Shown here: positions 14,501 through 23,070 of the stretch, one piece after another
Layout: every line of letters begins with the position of its first letter
How positions within the stretch are numbered: the first letter of the stretch is position 1
Source of the DNA: Ferranicluibacter rubi
GTDB taxonomy: Bacteria; Pseudomonadota; Alphaproteobacteria; Rhizobiales; Rhizobiaceae
Direction of reading: 5' to 3'
NCBI RefSeq assembly: GCF_011603255.1
Contig: NZ_JAANCM010000004.1
Span: 310,001 to 374,000 of the forward strand
DNA: 64,000 nucleotides
The notes under the pieces: model-generated
The model's input: only the letters and a program-made list of their open reading frames with translations
The model's database searches: none
What the model was told of the DNA's origin: nothing
Program-made: the position numbers and the translations under genes

Positions 14501-15107
14501 TATTGCCGAGCGTCTTCCAGGCACGGACCTCCTTCCCGTCAAGGCCATCGTCCATGCCTGCGTCGGATGGCACTGCATGAGGTCCATCCAATGCTTCCTC
14601 CTGTCGATCGGCCCCCAGTCGGTCGGCCTGAACGCTTTCATGCACGTTCTCATGGGTGCAGCGCTTCATCACGATCACTTGCAGGTGTTCCTGCCATGTC
14701 AGGAGATCGGAGAGGAAAAGGGTGCAGGTGCCCTTGTGCTCAGCACGCAGGTTGCCGGCGCTCAACAGGCGGCAGAGATGTGCCCATCCCTGCCGGTTGC
14801 GCGGATAGGCCAGCATGTCGGGCGAACCATCGGCAAAGACGAGGCGTGCACCGGGCTGGAAAGGAAATTTTTCCTCTCGCGCCTCTGCATGAACCCGGAC
14901 GACGCCGGACAGCGTGTTGCGATCGGTGATCCCCAGGCCCCTGAGACCGATCCGCTTGGCCGTGACCACCATCTCCTTGGCGCCCGAGGCGCCGCGCAGG
15001 AAGGAGAAATTTGTACAGGCGCCCAGCTCAAAAAAGGTCGGCGGCTGGGCTTTGGGTGGCTCGCTACCTGGCTCTACCGAACCTCTGCCGGATTCATGGC
15101 CGGTCAT
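11523..15107 (-). CDS. dnaE2: Error-prone DNA polymerase DnaE2 (ImuC)
   Basis: C-family polymerase for damage-induced mutagenic synthesis, working with ImuA and ImuB and lacking proofreading. The PHP domain begins at about residue 25 ([15 protein letters not shown]); the catalytic acidic motif PDIDIDF lies in the palm; an OB-fold near the C terminus ([19 protein letters not shown]) is typical. The ATG at 15107 overlaps the imuB stop as ATGA, which fixes the start. At 1194 aa it is longer than the usual 1050-1130. About 55 extra hydrophilic residues, rich in Asp/Glu/His, sit inside the PHP domain (about 149-203). Expected to be SOS-induced from the LexA box before imuA. Confidence 0.96.
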
Positions 15108-16729
15108 GCGAAAATACCGTGCATGAACCAGTCGGGATGCATCCGCTCGCGCTGGAAGAGGCCGTTGCGGAACATCCAGAAACGGCGCCCCGTCTCGTCC
15201 TCGATGCGGAAGTAGTCGCGCGTCGGCGCATCCTCGCCGTCGATCCACCACTCCGCGGCAATGCGCTCCGGGCCTTCCGCCCGGGCGACCCTGTAGGCTG
15301 TGCGCCGCCAGAAGAACCGCTCCGGCGCGCCGTCGGGAACATCGGCAGCGGGAACCTCCACCCGTTCGGGGTGGGTCAGAAGGCGCAGGGGTCGCACGGG
15401 CATGACCGGCCATTCCTCTGCCTGCAAGGTTTTCCTGGCCGGAAGGACGGCATCGCCCGCCGGCTGCAGGCTCGCCGCCCGTTCGGGGATATGGCTTGCG
15501 GCGAGAACCGCGATGGAGAGCACCTCGTCCCCGAAACGGGCGATGACGCGATCGGTGAAGTCGGCAAGCGCCCGGCTCTGGTCCGGCCTTCCGGAAAAAT
15601 CGTCCTGGACGGATTTGATCGGCTCGACTTTCAGGACGCAGAGCCGCAGGATCTCGAAACCGAAACCGGCATCCAGATCGTCATGCACAGCGGCAAGCCG
15701 CTCCTTGTAGAGCGCCGCGATGCGCTGCGGATCCCGCAACGGGGACGATGTGCCTGCGAGCAGCCGGAACACTTTGCCATCGACCCGAAAGAGCAGCAGC
15801 TCGAACTGGCGCCCGCCCTCTCCCCGCTCCTCCAGCGTGGTCTTGAGGCCCGCGGCAAGCTGCAGCGCAAGCCCGAGAATATCGTCTTCGCCTGAAACCG
15901 GCGAGATCAGCCGGCGCTCGACCGAAAGCTCGGCCACCGGGCGGCGTGGCGACAACGGCTCATCGTCATGCCCGAGTGCCTGGTCGAGCCGGAGGAAGAC
16001 GAGCGGGCCGAAGCGGCGCGCGAGCGCTGCCCGAGGTGCCTCCATGAGATCGGCGACATGGGTCAGCCCCAGCCGGATCAGTGTGTCCGTCAAGGTCTCC
16101 GGCAGCCGAAGCGCCGTCACCGGCAGGGGGCCGAGCGCTGCGGCCTCCTCTCCCGCCTCGATCACGCTATCGTCAGACAATCGCGCAGTGGAAAATCGTG
16201 CAAGAGCCCAGGCGAGGCCGGGAGATGCGGCAATCGCCCCGCGCGCCTCGACGCCGAGCTGGAAAAGGCGCGACAGGACATCGTCGAGCAGCGCCTTTTC
16301 CCCGCCATGCAGATGCGTGCAGCCGGTAATGTCGAGCGCCAGACCATCGGCACCGGCATAAGCGACCAGCGGCGTATAGCGATCGCACCAGTCGGCGAGA
16401 GCCGACAGAAAGGCCTGATCGGCAGTAGGATCGGCCGGCAGCACGTCGAGCTGCGGATGCATGGCGCGGGCTTCGGCCACGCCCTGCCCCCGCTTCAGTC
16501 GTAGGCGATCGGCCACGCTGTCGAGCGCCACGATCCGCATGGCATTTTCGACCTTGTCGGAGAACACCACCGGCGGGTGATCAGGACGCCCGCTTGAAAG
16601 CCATGACGCGCCCCAGCGCCGGCGCGCCACCCGGTCGGCCGACAGATGCGGAAAGGACAGTGAAAGGATCCGCTGCGTTTGCCGGAAGAGGGACGGCGAC
16701 GGGGTCGAGAGGATGGAACCGGCGCGCAT
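15104..16729 (-). CDS. imuB: ImuB, inactive Y-family polymerase-like hub of the mutasome
   Basis: Y-family (DinB/UmuC-like) protein that in characterised systems lacks polymerase activity and bridges the beta clamp, ImuA and DnaE2. The similarity starts at [19 protein letters not shown] and the helix-hairpin-helix region includes [14 protein letters not shown]. The ATG at 16729 (541 aa) has GGAG five bases upstream; another ATG at 16753 is possible. With either start the first 149 bases or more lie inside the end of imuA in another frame. The stop overlaps the dnaE2 start by four bases. Confidence 0.93.
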
Positions 16730-17564
16730 GGGAACTCCATTCAAGGTAGGCATCGACAGGGGAAAAGGCCCGTGTCTTCTCGGCAATGACGTGAAAGGCG
16801 GGATGCCCGATGCCGGTCGTGAGCATCGTGCCATCGGGCAGCATGAACGGGGCTGCGGGCGCGGGACGCACGAGAAGACGCAGGTGCGCGCTGCTCGCCT
16901 CCTCCTCGCCCGCCTGCCGCAGGAGAAAGACCGGAACGCCGCTACCCAGCGACCGCAATTGCAGCCGCCGGCTTTCGGCAAGCCCGAGACGCGCCGGATT
17001 GCCGCGGATCTCCAGAATGACGGCGGAAAACACGGAAAAGCCGAGTGCCGCTTCGGCAATCCACAACGCCTGCTGCAGATTGCGAGGCCGGGAGAAGAGG
17101 GCGGCACGCAGATCGATCCCGAGAAGCGACAGGCCGACACCATAAGGCTCGCCCGCCTCCTGTCCTGCCATCGTCTCGGAGATCCAGAGGATCGGCCCGA
17201 GCTCGCCCCGCGCCTTGCGTCGTGCTTGGCAGAGCGCGGCAAGTCCCAGCGTAAACCCCGTGGCGGCACCGGCATCACGCGTTTCCGCCACACGGATCTC
17301 GCTTAATCCCTTGAGCGGCAGTCCGCCGGACATAGCATGATCGAGCGTGGGAACGCCGAGCGGCAGAACGTCAGCCTGCCGGGTGACGTCCTGCCCAGTG
17401 ACGTCCGGCATGGGCAGAGACCGTCCGGACGCCGAAAATCCCGCCCGTTCGCCCTCCGTCTCCCATCTGGAAAGACAGGAACCGGATGGCCTGTCTCGTT
17501 CCAGTCGGGCAATGGCATCGCGCAGGGCGAGCACCGTCTCCCGCGGCACAGCGTTTTCAGCCAT
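16581..17564 (-). CDS. imuA: ImuA, RecA/SulA-like mutasome protein
   Basis: First gene of the imuA-imuB-dnaE2 cassette. The 327-aa protein has a RecA-like core: LPLGVPTLDHAMSGGLPLKGLSEI near residues 67-90, then a hydrophobic strand (ELGPILWISE) and VILEIRGN. It lacks a canonical Walker A motif, as other ImuA proteins do. In known systems it interacts with ImuB and RecA. The ATG has AGGAG ten bases upstream, and a LexA box is centred about 26 bases upstream. Confidence 0.92.
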   Translation of the reverse strand: MAENAVPRETVLALRDAIARLERDRPSGSCLSRWETEGERAGFSASGRSLPMPDVTGQDVTRQADVLPLGVPTLDHAMSGGLPLKGLSEIRVAETRDAGAATGFTLGLAALCQARRKARGELGPILWISETMAGQEAGEPYGVGLSLLGIDLRAALFSRPRNLQQALWIAEAALGFSVFSAVILEIRGNPARLGLAESRRLQLRSLGSGVPVFLLRQAGEEEASSAHLRLLVRPAPAAPFMLPDGTMLTTGIGHPAFHVIAEKTRAFSPVDAYLEWSSHARRFHPLDPVAVPLPANAADPFTVLSASVGRPGGAPALGRVMAFKRAS

Positions 17565-17582: not shown

Positions 17583-17597
17583 GTTCTTGATATGTTC
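17583..17597 (-). promoter_or_regulatory. LexA (SOS) box of imuA-imuB-dnaE2
   Basis: GTTC-N7-GTTC (GAACATATCAAGAAC on the coding strand) is a perfect match to the alphaproteobacterial LexA operator. It lies 19-33 bases before the imuA ATG, downstream of a -35-like TTGACT (complement of 17624-17629) and close to the expected transcription start, so LexA binding should block transcription. Confidence 0.88.
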
Positions 17598-20239: not shown

Positions 20240-20272
20240 TTGACGCGAACGGCAAAAGAACATATGTAGAAC
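20240..20272 (+). promoter_or_regulatory. SOS promoter with two overlapping LexA boxes; predicted leaderless start
   Basis: Three GAAC half-sites at 20247, 20258 and 20269 are spaced exactly 11 bases, giving two GAAC-N7-GAAC LexA boxes that share the middle half-site. They overlap a sigma70-like promoter, TTGACG (20240-20245), 17-base spacer, TATGTA (20263-20268). The expected transcription start falls at about the ATG at 20276, and no Shine-Dalgarno is seen. Confidence 0.8.
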
Positions 20273-20275
20273 ATC

Positions 20276-21508
20276 ATGAAAAAGTCGCTGAAAGAGCGTT
20301 TGGCTATCCTCTCGGATGCCGCCAAATACGATGCGTCCTGTGCCTCCAGCGGAACGACGAAACGCAATTCGTCGGCCAGTGGCGGCCTCGGCTCCACGGA
20401 GGGATCCGGCATCTGTCATGCCTATGCGCCCGACGGGCGATGCATTTCCCTGCTCAAGATCCTGATGACGAATTTCTGCATCTACGACTGCGCCTATTGC
20501 ATCAACAGGTCGTCCAGCAATGTCGAGCGCGCACGCTTTTCGGTCGAGGAAGTGGTCTGGCTGACGCTCGAATTCTATCGGCGCAACTATATCGAAGGCC
20601 TGTTCCTGTCGTCCGGTATCATCCGCTCGTCCGACCATACGATGGAGGAGATGGTGCGCATTGCGCGCGAGCTGCGCGTCACGCATAATTTCCGCGGCTA
20701 CATCCATCTGAAATCCATTCCCGAAGCATCCGCTGCGCTGATCGAAGAGGCAGGGCTTTATGCCGACCGCCTGTCGATCAACATCGAACTGCCGACCGAT
20801 GCAGGCTTGACCCGCTATGCGCCGGAAAAACGGCCTGCCGGCATTCGCAAGTCGATGGGCGACCTCCGCCTGAAGATCGAGGAAATGCGCGACCCGACCC
20901 TGCAGACCAAGCGCATACGGCGCTTTGCGCCCGCCGGCCAGAGCACGCAGATGATCGTCGGCGCCGACCAGGCGAACGACAGCGTCATCCTCGGCACCAG
21001 CGCCCGGCTTTACGGCAGCTACGGCCTGCGCCGCGTCTATTACTCAGCCTTCAGCCCCATTCCGGATGCCTCGCGCAACCTGCCCCTCGTCAAGCCGCCT
21101 TTGATGCGCGAGCACCGGCTCTACCAGGCCGACTGGCTCTATCGCTTCTACGGCTTCGGCATCGAGGAGATCACGCGCGACCAGCCGGATGGCATGCTCG
21201 ATCTCGATCTCGACCCGAAGCTCGCCTGGGCGCTCGCCAACCGGCAGCGCTTTCCCGTTGACATCAACAAGGCCGATCGCGAGATGCTTCTGCGCGTACC
21301 CGGTTTCGGCACGAAGATCGTCCGCGCCATCCTCACCGCCCGCCGGCACCGCACCTTGCGGCTGGAGGATCTCGTCCGCCTCAAGGTCTCGTTGAAAAAA
21401 GTGCAGGCCTTCATCATTGCCGAAGGCTGGACGCCGTCGCGCCTCATCGACCGGCCCGACCTGCGCACCATGTTCGCGCCGAAACCCGAACAGCTGGTCC
21501 TTCTCTGA
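20276..21508 (+). CDS. Putative DNA modification/repair radical SAM protein (rSAM linked to UDG)
   Basis: 410-aa radical SAM enzyme. The [4Fe-4S] motif is C68-x3-C72-x2-C75 (CIYDCAYC). The conserved N terminus LKERLAILSDAAKYDASC fits this family and supports the ATG at 20276. A C-terminal helix-hairpin-helix segment (INKADREMLLRVPGFGTKIV, about 330-350) suggests DNA binding. Members of this family are consistently paired with UdgX/DUF4130 genes, as here, where the stop shares one base with the next ATG. The reaction is unknown; distant likeness to spore photoproduct lyase suggests repair of a damaged base. Under two LexA boxes. Confidence 0.92.
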   Translation: MKKSLKERLAILSDAAKYDASCASSGTTKRNSSASGGLGSTEGSGICHAYAPDGRCISLLKILMTNFCIYDCAYCINRSSSNVERARFSVEEVVWLTLEFYRRNYIEGLFLSSGIIRSSDHTMEEMVRIARELRVTHNFRGYIHLKSIPEASAALIEEAGLYADRLSINIELPTDAGLTRYAPEKRPAGIRKSMGDLRLKIEEMRDPTLQTKRIRRFAPAGQSTQMIVGADQANDSVILGTSARLYGSYGLRRVYYSAFSPIPDASRNLPLVKPPLMREHRLYQADWLYRFYGFGIEEITRDQPDGMLDLDLDPKLAWALANRQRFPVDINKADREMLLRVPGFGTKIVRAILTARRHRTLRLEDLVRLKVSLKKVQAFIIAEGWTPSRLIDRPDLRTMFAPKPEQLVLL

Positions 21509-23070
21509 TGCAGTCGCTCGACCTTGAGAGGCAAACGGTCATGCTCGACGGGAAGGGCGATTTCGGCGAATGGCGGGAGGCCGCACGCCGGCTTCTGATG
21601 GTGGGAACGTGGCCGGCCGCCGTGGACTGGCGGGAAAAGCACGGCGCAACCGACCTCTTTGCCGATCCGCCGCCGGCGCGGCCGAACGCAGAAGGAAAAC
21701 CGGAGGGAACACGGCCGGAGATCACCGTTCCCCGCGCCTTCATGACGCTGGCGGAAACCGTGATCTGCCATTCCGATCCCGGCCGTTTTACGCTTCTCTA
21801 TCGCACGCTCTGGCGCCTGCAGGCCGAGCGCAACCTGCTCGACATCGTCTCGGATGCCGATGTCGTTCGGCTCAACGCCATGGAAAAATCCGTTCGTCGG
21901 GACAGCCACAAGATGAAGGCCTTCGTGCGCTTCAAGGAGATCGGCGCCAGCACATCCACAACAAGCACATCGACGACGGACATTATGGAGGTGATCGCCC
22001 GTCCCGCCCCTCTGGAGGCGAGCGGCATCCCGATCGGCCGCCGGCGCTTTTTCGCCTGGTTCGAGCCGGACCATTTCATCGTCGCGCGCGCGGCCCCTTT
22101 CTTCCAGCGGCGTTTCACCGATATGGACTGGATCATCGCCACGCCGAAAGGCTCCGCCGCCTGGGATGGAACCGCGCTGACGGTGACGTCCGAGCCGGCC
22201 GACGATCCCAAACTGACCGATGACGCGGACACGCTGTGGCGCACCTATTACAGCAACATCTTCAATCCGGCGCGGCTGAAGGTGAAGGCGATGCAGTCGG
22301 AAATGCCGAAGAAATATTGGAAGAACCTGCCGGAAGCCAACCTCATCCCCGGCCTGATCGCCGGTGCGGAAGAAAAGGTGCGGGCCATGGCCGAACAGGC
22401 GATGAAGGACCCGCCGGCCTTTCACGCGAAGGTGCGCGAGGCCGCCATGCCGAAGACTGAGGAGAACACAGCCCTTCCCGGTACGCTGGAGGCCGCACGG
22501 GCAGAGGCGCGCGACTGCACCCGCTGTCCGCTCTCCTGCAAGGCGACGCAGACCGTGTTCGGCGAAGGGCCTGACGACGCAAAACTGATGTTCGTCGGCG
22601 AGCAGCCGGGCGACCAGGAGGATCTTGCCGGCCGTCCCTTCATCGGCCCCGCCGGCAAGATGTTCGACACGATCGCCGGCGAGGTCGATCTCGATCGCAA
22701 ACATGCCTATGTCACCAATGCGGTGAAGCACTTCAAATACGAGCCGCGCGGCAAGCGCCGTATCCACCAGAAGCCGAATATGGGCGAAATCCGCGCCTGT
22801 CGCTGGTGGCTCAAGCTGGAACTCGACCTGATCCAGCCGAAACTGGTGGTTGCCATGGGTGCAACGGCTCTGACGTCCGTCATGAACCATGCCGAACGCC
22901 TCAGCGACTACCGGAGCCGCACGGTCGATCTCGATGACGGGCGCGCGCTCTACACCACGGTCCATCCCTCCTACCTCCTGCGCATTCCCGACGAGGGACG
23001 CAAGCGTGAGGAGATCGACCGTTTTCGCGAAGATCTGCAAGCGATCAAGAGCCTCAGCGACACACTATAA
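21508..23070 (+). CDS. UdgX-family uracil-DNA binding protein with N-terminal DUF4130 domain
   Basis: 520-aa fusion. The N-terminal half (about 1-260) matches the DUF4130 'probable DNA metabolism' family; the C-terminal half (about 300-515) is a family-4-like uracil-DNA glycosylase fold of the UdgX type. Signs are the Cys pattern DCTRCPLSC for the Fe-S cluster, motif GEQPGDQE at 364-371, the UdgX-specific loop KRRIHQ at 416-421 with His420, and HPSYLLR from 486. In characterised mycobacterial UdgX the equivalent His forms a covalent bond to the abasic sugar after uracil removal. Translationally coupled to the radical SAM gene. Confidence 0.93.
   Translation: MQSLDLERQTVMLDGKGDFGEWREAARRLLMVGTWPAAVDWREKHGATDLFADPPPARPNAEGKPEGTRPEITVPRAFMTLAETVICHSDPGRFTLLYRTLWRLQAERNLLDIVSDADVVRLNAMEKSVRRDSHKMKAFVRFKEIGASTSTTSTSTTDIMEVIARPAPLEASGIPIGRRRFFAWFEPDHFIVARAAPFFQRRFTDMDWIIATPKGSAAWDGTALTVTSEPADDPKLTDDADTLWRTYYSNIFNPARLKVKAMQSEMPKKYWKNLPEANLIPGLIAGAEEKVRAMAEQAMKDPPAFHAKVREAAMPKTEENTALPGTLEAARAEARDCTRCPLSCKATQTVFGEGPDDAKLMFVGEQPGDQEDLAGRPFIGPAGKMFDTIAGEVDLDRKHAYVTNAVKHFKYEPRGKRRIHQKPNMGEIRACRWWLKLELDLIQPKLVVAMGATALTSVMNHAERLSDYRSRTVDLDDGRALYTTVHPSYLLRIPDEGRKREEIDRFREDLQAIKSLSDTL

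Follow-up and report, generated by a model that had tools for sequence, protein, structure and literature searches.

Description

The radical SAM (S-adenosylmethionine) family TIGR03916, which we take to be COG4277, is represented in Ferranicluibacter rubi by the first of two genes at 20276-23070 of the 64,000-nucleotide stretch of DNA analysed here (the window), the second gene encoding a DUF4130-UdgX protein. The closest described system is the COG4277-COG1573 operon (TIGR03916 with TIGR03915/TIGR03914), which is the same type of gene pair and whose SOS control is already published, LexA control having been predicted in Bacteroidetes and reported in Verrucomicrobia and Alphaproteobacteria, the latter two with reference to Erill 2016 and da Rocha 2008 (PMC8565304). 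The consulted part of that account mentions neither a clamp tail nor a leaderless start nor extra cysteines. UdgX of Mycobacterium smegmatis (PDB 6ajo, 6ajp and others) shares the fold, the GEQPG motif and the KRRIH loop with the cross-linking histidine, but its solved chains are about 190-230 amino acids long, whereas the UdgX of the window follows DUF4130 within one protein and shares its operon with a radical SAM gene. Bacterial proteins that bind the beta clamp, among them Pol II, Pol IV, Hda and MutL, carry the same short motif as the radical SAM protein described here, Q-phi-x-[L/M]-[F/L], which is C-terminal in Pol II and Pol IV as it is in this protein (PMC11139829, PMC9690074). The nearest parallel is archaeal NreB, a protein with PCNA-binding kin, and its adjacent SplB-like gene, in which a radical SAM repair-type gene is likewise linked to a sliding-clamp binder, but there the PCNA motif is on the neighbouring Nre protein whereas here the clamp motif is on the radical SAM protein itself (PMC4929162).

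Set beside these systems, the locus yields one main new result: the radical SAM protein appears to end in a beta-clamp-binding peptide, QLVLL here and usually QLSLF. The tail, the extra conserved cysteines and the already published SOS control all go beyond the initial annotation of this DNA. The gene was assigned to TIGR03916 by profile scan (569 bits against a cut-off of 343.5), and its named closest relatives include Endobacterium, Agrobacterium, Rhizobium and Ensifer. The gene and its tail are located as follows.

20276..21508, + strand: radical SAM gene, TIGR03916 (rSAM_link_UDG), 410 amino acids, 569 bits
21491..21505, + strand: QLVLL, C-terminal pentapeptide of beta-clamp-binding type by motif match, residues 406-410

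C-terminal tail of the radical SAM protein

QLVLL (residues 406-410) fits the formal clamp motif, Q-phi-x-[L/M]-[F/L] or Q-phi-x-[L/M]-x-[F/L], the definition of which was taken from PMC11139829; QL(S/D)LF at the C-terminus is given as a bacterial clamp motif in PMC9690074. Family loci (n=67) are the window and 66 fetched loci, together every TIGR03916 match above cut-off among 151 genomes of the same bacterial family. In the alignment of relatives a linker of varying length is followed by a fixed terminal pentapeptide, present in 66 of the 67 family proteins, the 67th being truncated by a contig end.

Tails were surveyed at 183 loci (66 from the family and 117 others, window excluded), 182 of them with a complete radical SAM protein and two pairs being duplicates (L072 = L176, L105 = L170). 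A strict motif, terminal Q[LM]xL[FLI] with at most two residues beyond it, was found in 166 of the 182 complete proteins (164 of 180 without duplicates) vs 1 of 2,888 other mechanical open reading frames (ORFs) of at least 150 amino acids from the same loci. The formal motif lies within the last 40 residues of 167/182 and 25/2,888, respectively, and the 15 misses are all near-variants: QLxLI or QMLLI (6), QLGFGF (4), and QQSLF, QFELF, QGSLF, QLSIF and QLSLW (1 each). When the set was thinned to about 78% identity (n=62), 43 proteins ended exactly with a slightly looser motif, in which Q and L are invariant by construction. Two proteins whose DUF4130-UdgX gene is elsewhere (L089, L102) retain QLELF, so the tail is no by-product of an overlapping gene start. 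Residues 407-410 of the predicted structure have a predicted local distance difference test score (pLDDT) below 50, as would be expected of a free tail. The clamp motif was also sought in DUF4130-UdgX, where a motif-like string occurs anywhere in 16 of 167 proteins and is thus not conserved.

That the QLxL[F/L] tail is not a clamp tag, and instead contacts a different partner or packs against the protein itself, seems quite improbable: the formal motif is indeed unmatched in 15 of the 182 proteins, four of them with QLGFGF, but the published motif fits the other 167, where it stands at or close to the C-terminus behind a linker that varies in length. The tail also recurs, in one form or another, in records from Spirosoma and Phocaeicola (Bacteroidota), Pusillibacter and Acetoanaerobium (Bacillota), Acinetobacter and Gemmatirosa, as well as in a second LexA-boxed radical SAM family. 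None of the literature matches listed (subscription journals and preprints being outside the scope) assigns such a motif to a radical SAM protein from bacteria, and the term "radical SAM" is absent from the consulted part of a review of clamp partners (PMC11139829).

A second tailed family

Nine radical SAM proteins were found in the host genome (5.47 Mb), and two of them end in a clamp motif, the TIGR03916 protein and a protein of the PA0069 family (NF033668). The same two genes have a GAAC/GTTC-N7 box near the start (from 400 bases before to 120 after the first start codon), vs 0 of the 7 others. The PA0069-family gene (G000:C18:14304-15347; L306, L135) has its LexA-type box near the start and its product ends in QLSLL. 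PA0069 scores above cut-off in 59 of 61 family genomes, and among the best 30 loci of this family the formal motif is at the end of 29 (the other has QLVLI) and a box lies within 450 bases 5' of the profile match in 29.

PA0069 thus shares the terminal clamp motif and the upstream LexA-type box with TIGR03916 and is a separate family. The matching tail and box suggest a shared principle rather than a single odd case. A broader reading, to which we give a little less than an even chance, is that bacteria have a general SOS module of clamp-tethered radical SAM proteins in at least two families (TIGR03916 with DUF4130; PA0069), which would work at the replication machinery and act on DNA lesions by radical chemistry, TIGR03916 perhaps with a second metal site at Cys22/Cys47/Cys56/His48.

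LexA-type operator

The operator and promoter elements are given below with the box of imuA from the same window for comparison.

20240..20245, + strand: -35 element TTGACG, by position and a 17-nucleotide spacer
20247..20261, + strand: LexA-type box 1, GAACGGCAAAAGAAC
20258..20272, + strand: LexA-type box 2, GAACATATGTAGAAC (GAAC-N7-GAAC), covering the -10 element
20263..20268, + strand: -10 element TATGTA, a poor match, ending 7 nucleotides 5' of the ATG
17583..17597, - strand: LexA-type box GAACATATCAAGAAC 5' of imuA, whose leader holds AGGAG (same-genome comparison)

Three GAAC half-sites 11 bases apart, forming two overlapping boxes, had been described in the initial annotation and are present at 20247, 20258 and 20269. 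This triple spacing occurs at 2 sites in the genome vs 0 for a reversed control pattern; the other site (G000:C22:294382-294407, L001) is about 230 bases 5' of a reading frame that encodes PHP and DNA polymerase III alpha domains. GAAC-N7-GAAC occurs 175 times genome-wide vs 79 times for its reversed control, so single sites are often due to chance. The stricter pattern GAACAWN5GAAC occurs 30 times vs 3, several of the 30 falling within other reading frames. Genes adjoining 15 of these 30 loci were viewed and 10 proteins were scanned against Pfam, with matches in seven (RecA, UvrA, SSB, UvrD, RecQ-type helicase, ComM/Mg-chelatase type and DNA polymerase III alpha) and no Pfam match in three.

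At the family loci an exact GAAC-N7-GAAC, the mark of the SOS regulon at promoters of Alphaproteobacteria, was found in 67/67, 30-47 bases 5' of the start of the profile match, vs 13 of 6,590 control tiles (175 bases each, taken at a distance from the gene in the window and the other family loci). As a rule these loci have a single box; an overlapping pair is exceptional and was found at 4 of the 67 (the window, L074, L083 and L087). Outside the family (n=117, with no ATG at the expected start in 6), GAAC-N7-GAAC lies within 60 bases of the chosen start at 90 loci, on the other strand only at 7, and on neither at 20. Three of these 20, all from other classes of the phylum (L258, L261 and, from Caballeronia, L269), have CTGT-N8-ACAG, the E. 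coli-type LexA operator. The remaining 17, at which the LexA operators of their own lineages were not sought, include Bacteroidota, Bacillota, Acinetobacter, Xanthomonas and Gemmatirosa as well as five from outside the class or family.

Membership of the operon in the SOS regulon, as proposed in the initial annotation, is therefore strongly supported by the operators, and LexA would be expected to bind them and DNA damage to induce the genes. A paper on the Caulobacter SOS response (PMC13384398) makes no mention of radical SAM, uracil or UdgX, and one on UDGX (PMC10776899) makes none of radical SAM, an operon, DUF4130 or SOS.

Promoter and predicted start

TTGACG (20240-20245), a spacer of 17 and TATGTA (20263-20268) are exactly as first described. 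The ATG is at 20276, and with 7 nucleotides between TATGTA and the ATG the usual start point would fall on the A of the ATG. The ribosome site is absent as well, the 30 nucleotides 5' of the ATG holding no Shine-Dalgarno-like string. A relative from the same genus (L080) has TATATA with the same gap of 7, whereas imuA of the same genome, with a similar box, has a leader with AGGAG.

Hexamers resembling the -10 element were scored with the start codon placed at the conserved N-terminus, at the 67 family loci and for 690 mechanical ORFs. The best hexamer lies 5-11 nucleotides 5' of the ATG at 59 of 67 loci and exactly 6 nucleotides away at 34. Scores of at least 7 were obtained at 47/67 loci vs 26/690 ORFs, and among these the gap is 5-11 in 46/47 and 11/26, respectively. 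A box that covers the -10 element at a fixed distance from the ATG would fix this gap anyway, so the better test is given by the 19 loci with the box at least 11 nucleotides from the ATG, where the gap is 5-7 in 10, 9 in 4 and 15-23 in 5, L124 and L125 being two of these five. Shine-Dalgarno-like strings were found at 9 of 67 loci vs 160 of 690 mechanical ORFs, a weak control, since many of these ORFs do not represent genes.

The prediction is thus of an mRNA with no leader or almost none, from an arrangement that is frequent and not universal. The leaderless start of the initial annotation draws its support from comparison, namely from the -10 spacing across the 67 loci. An mRNA with an ordinary leader, the apparent leaderless start being a by-product of an operator that covers the -10 element, seems improbable. 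Points in its favour are the weak -10 element of the window itself, the 8 of 67 loci with the best hexamer outside 5-11 nucleotides (including the window, where the scorer picked a hexamer other than TATGTA), and two loci with Shine-Dalgarno-like strings and gaps of 23 and 18 (L124 and L125, respectively); yet where the hexamer is untied to the box (19 loci), the gap is still 5-7 at 10 loci and 9 at 4. The class is rich in leaderless mRNAs, with 375 in Caulobacter and 171 in Sinorhizobium (PMC4117421, PMC3616915), so a start of this type is not new.

DUF4130-UdgX and the gene pair

The second gene contains TIGR03915 (DUF4130, 213 bits) followed by TIGR03914 (UdgX, 332.1 bits against a cut-off of 189.95) by profile scan.

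21508..23070, + strand: DUF4130-UdgX gene, 520 amino acids, its ATG sharing one base with the radical SAM stop
21553..22338, + strand: DUF4130 domain (TIGR03915), residues 16-277, 213 bits
22342..23046, + strand: UdgX domain (TIGR03914), residues 279-513, 332 bits, fold match to 6ajp (E 8.8e-21)
22753..22767, + strand: KRRIH loop with His420, by alignment to M. smegmatis UdgX

The two genes had been described as fused by a 1-base overlap; the overlap is real (TGATG), and the products are two separate proteins. KRRIH at residues 416-420 aligns with the loop of solved M. smegmatis UdgX, so the assignment of the covalent-bond histidine to His420 was correct. GEQPG is at 364, and among relatives GEQPG was found in 150/154 and the loop pattern in 142/154. 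In one relative (L124, G002) the UdgX part lacks, in the alignment, the CxxC stretch that relatives carry before the GEQPG region. The predicted structure of DUF4130-UdgX has a mean pLDDT of 87.9 and a predicted template modelling score (pTM) of 0.62; its UdgX half matches solved UdgX, and for the DUF4130 fold the best 50 structure matches listed are all of uracil-DNA glycosylase (UDG) type or polymerase.

Pairing with TIGR03915 is presumably the defining feature of TIGR03916, and it is found here. TIGR03916 is above cut-off in 67 of the 151 family genomes and DUF4130 in 66, all among those 67, the exception (G043) being cut by a contig end; the two-protein pair first described is therefore real. 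A further genome, G146, has a weak DUF4130-like match. Among the control genomes, Caulobacter vibrioides gives matches in both scans. Both genes also co-occur in G022 and G124, where they are far apart. In these two genomes the separated DUF4130-UdgX gene (L129, L130) has no LexA box of its own upstream and is preceded by a gene whose product has a cytidine/deoxycytidylate deaminase-type domain (PF00383).

In part of the range UdgX seems to have been added: it is fused to DUF4130 in the majority of the Proteobacteria covered here and absent beside it elsewhere. DUF4130 and UdgX share one frame at 157 of the 183 loci and lie in different frames at 1, DUF4130 stands alone at 16 (3 cut by an end), and neither was found at 9 (cut, split or too distant for the query). 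Annotated records from Spirosoma (Bacteroidota) and Pusillibacter (Bacillota) have TIGR03915 and no UdgX in the stretch shown, where a more distant UdgX gene is possible, and radical SAM and DUF4130 genes without UdgX alongside also occur in some Alphaproteobacteria. In view of the loci with DUF4130 alone, UdgX was rejected as an essential part. UdgX has been suggested to protect abasic sites, its precise role being described as largely unknown (PMC10359453).

This distribution bears on the suggestion in the initial annotation that the radical SAM enzyme processes either a lesion or the UdgX-DNA adduct, and it weakens the second half. Processing of the covalent UdgX-DNA adduct, or of a uracil site made by UdgX, is quite improbable. 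The genes are adjacent, UdgX and DUF4130 mostly share a frame, and there is no settled view of how UdgX-DNA complexes are resolved, RecA-dependent routes or proteases having been suggested (PMC10359453), but radical SAM and DUF4130 genes occur without adjacent UdgX in several lineages, which makes clearing of the adduct unlikely as the core job.

Linkage of the operon to imuA-imuB-dnaE2 is not conserved, as only two of the 67 loci, which both come from the genus of the window, have these genes nearby (four of the loci are shorter than the others). PADLOC gave no match to a defence system. A relative of the radical SAM gene is present on 158 of 72,556 plasmid records, among them Phaeobacter (58), Paracoccus (15) and Azospirillum (11).

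Motifs and fold of the radical SAM protein

Three further features lie within the radical SAM gene.

20339..20443, + strand: codons of Cys22, Cys47, His48 and Cys56, a possible second metal site (53 of 54 aligned proteins)
20477..20500, + strand: CIYDCAYC, radical SAM cluster motif, residues 68-75 (three Cys in 54 of 54)
21254..21346, + strand: helix-hairpin-helix-like stretch, residues 327-357 (HHH_3, E 2.1e-4, under the Pfam cut-off)

The CxxxCxxC motif was confirmed as CIYDCAYC (residues 68-75), its three cysteines being conserved in 54/54 aligned proteins. Beyond it, Cys22, Cys47, His48 and Cys56 are each conserved in 53/54 and may form a second metal site. The C-terminal helix-hairpin-helix segment stands in part: there is a match at residues 327-357, but it is under the Pfam cut-off (21.8 vs 27 bits).

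A sequence search of solved structures gave no match to the whole protein, the best (E 0.016) being of ComEA type and to the helix-hairpin-helix part only. The predicted structure has a mean pLDDT of 84.0 and a pTM of 0.82, with residues 22-47 also below 50, and among solved folds Foldseek places it closest to HydE, biotin synthase and viperin. A reaction in the manner of spore photoproduct lyase (SplB), in which a pyrimidine photolesion or crosslink is reversed directly and the clamp tail is no more than an aid to efficiency, would be a special case of the explanation favoured below and is unlikely in this specific form. A radical SAM protein of the SplB group is reported to be SOS-regulated (PMC8565304), DUF4130 has been linked in print, apparently in a figure legend, to an SplB-like radical SAM protein and UDG (PMC3765255), and the PA0069-family protein of this genome also has the LexA-type box and the tail; but no spore photoproduct lyase is among the best 50 Foldseek matches listed, and TIGR03916 and PA0069 are separate families.

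Discussion

The explanation that we favour, and hold to be probable while well short of certain, is that an SOS-induced radical SAM protein docks on the clamp and, together with DUF4130, acts on a lesion in the DNA, with UdgX as a trap for uracil sites. LexA would sit on the promoter and be released upon DNA damage, and a leaderless or nearly leaderless mRNA is predicted to be made and read from its 5' AUG. The beta sliding clamp would then receive the C-terminal QLxL[F/L] tail in its peptide pocket, and this would place the radical SAM protein at or behind stalled forks, beside translesion synthesis. There it may, with its constant partner DUF4130, change or remove a DNA lesion by radical chemistry. 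UdgX would excise uracil and covalently cap the site by the known chemistry of its family, and it may do so in the same event. The operator, the pairing, the tail and the domain make-up are supported by sequence comparison.

Several observations weigh against this explanation. ImuB of the window (15104-17293, - strand) is without the formal clamp motif, so the tail is no general rule for SOS proteins here; mycobacterial ImuB, unlike that of the window, has QLPLWG (PMC10421592). Among the near-variant tails, which fall outside the formal motif, six have a terminal I and four read QLGFGF. The 2,888 control ORFs were called mechanically and include many that are not genes, and the relatives share descent, so the counts are not independent events. 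No match to the radical SAM protein was found in 83 of the 151 family genomes, and one (G082) has a fragment only. The closest solved folds by Foldseek are not those of a DNA-repair enzyme.

TIGR03916 is widespread and its reaction is unassigned, and a clamp tail would directly hint at where the family works. If true, radical SAM enzymes would be a new chemical class among the clients of the sliding clamp, and UdgX, which is used to map uracil and whose cellular role is largely unknown (PMC10359453), would gain a repair setting.

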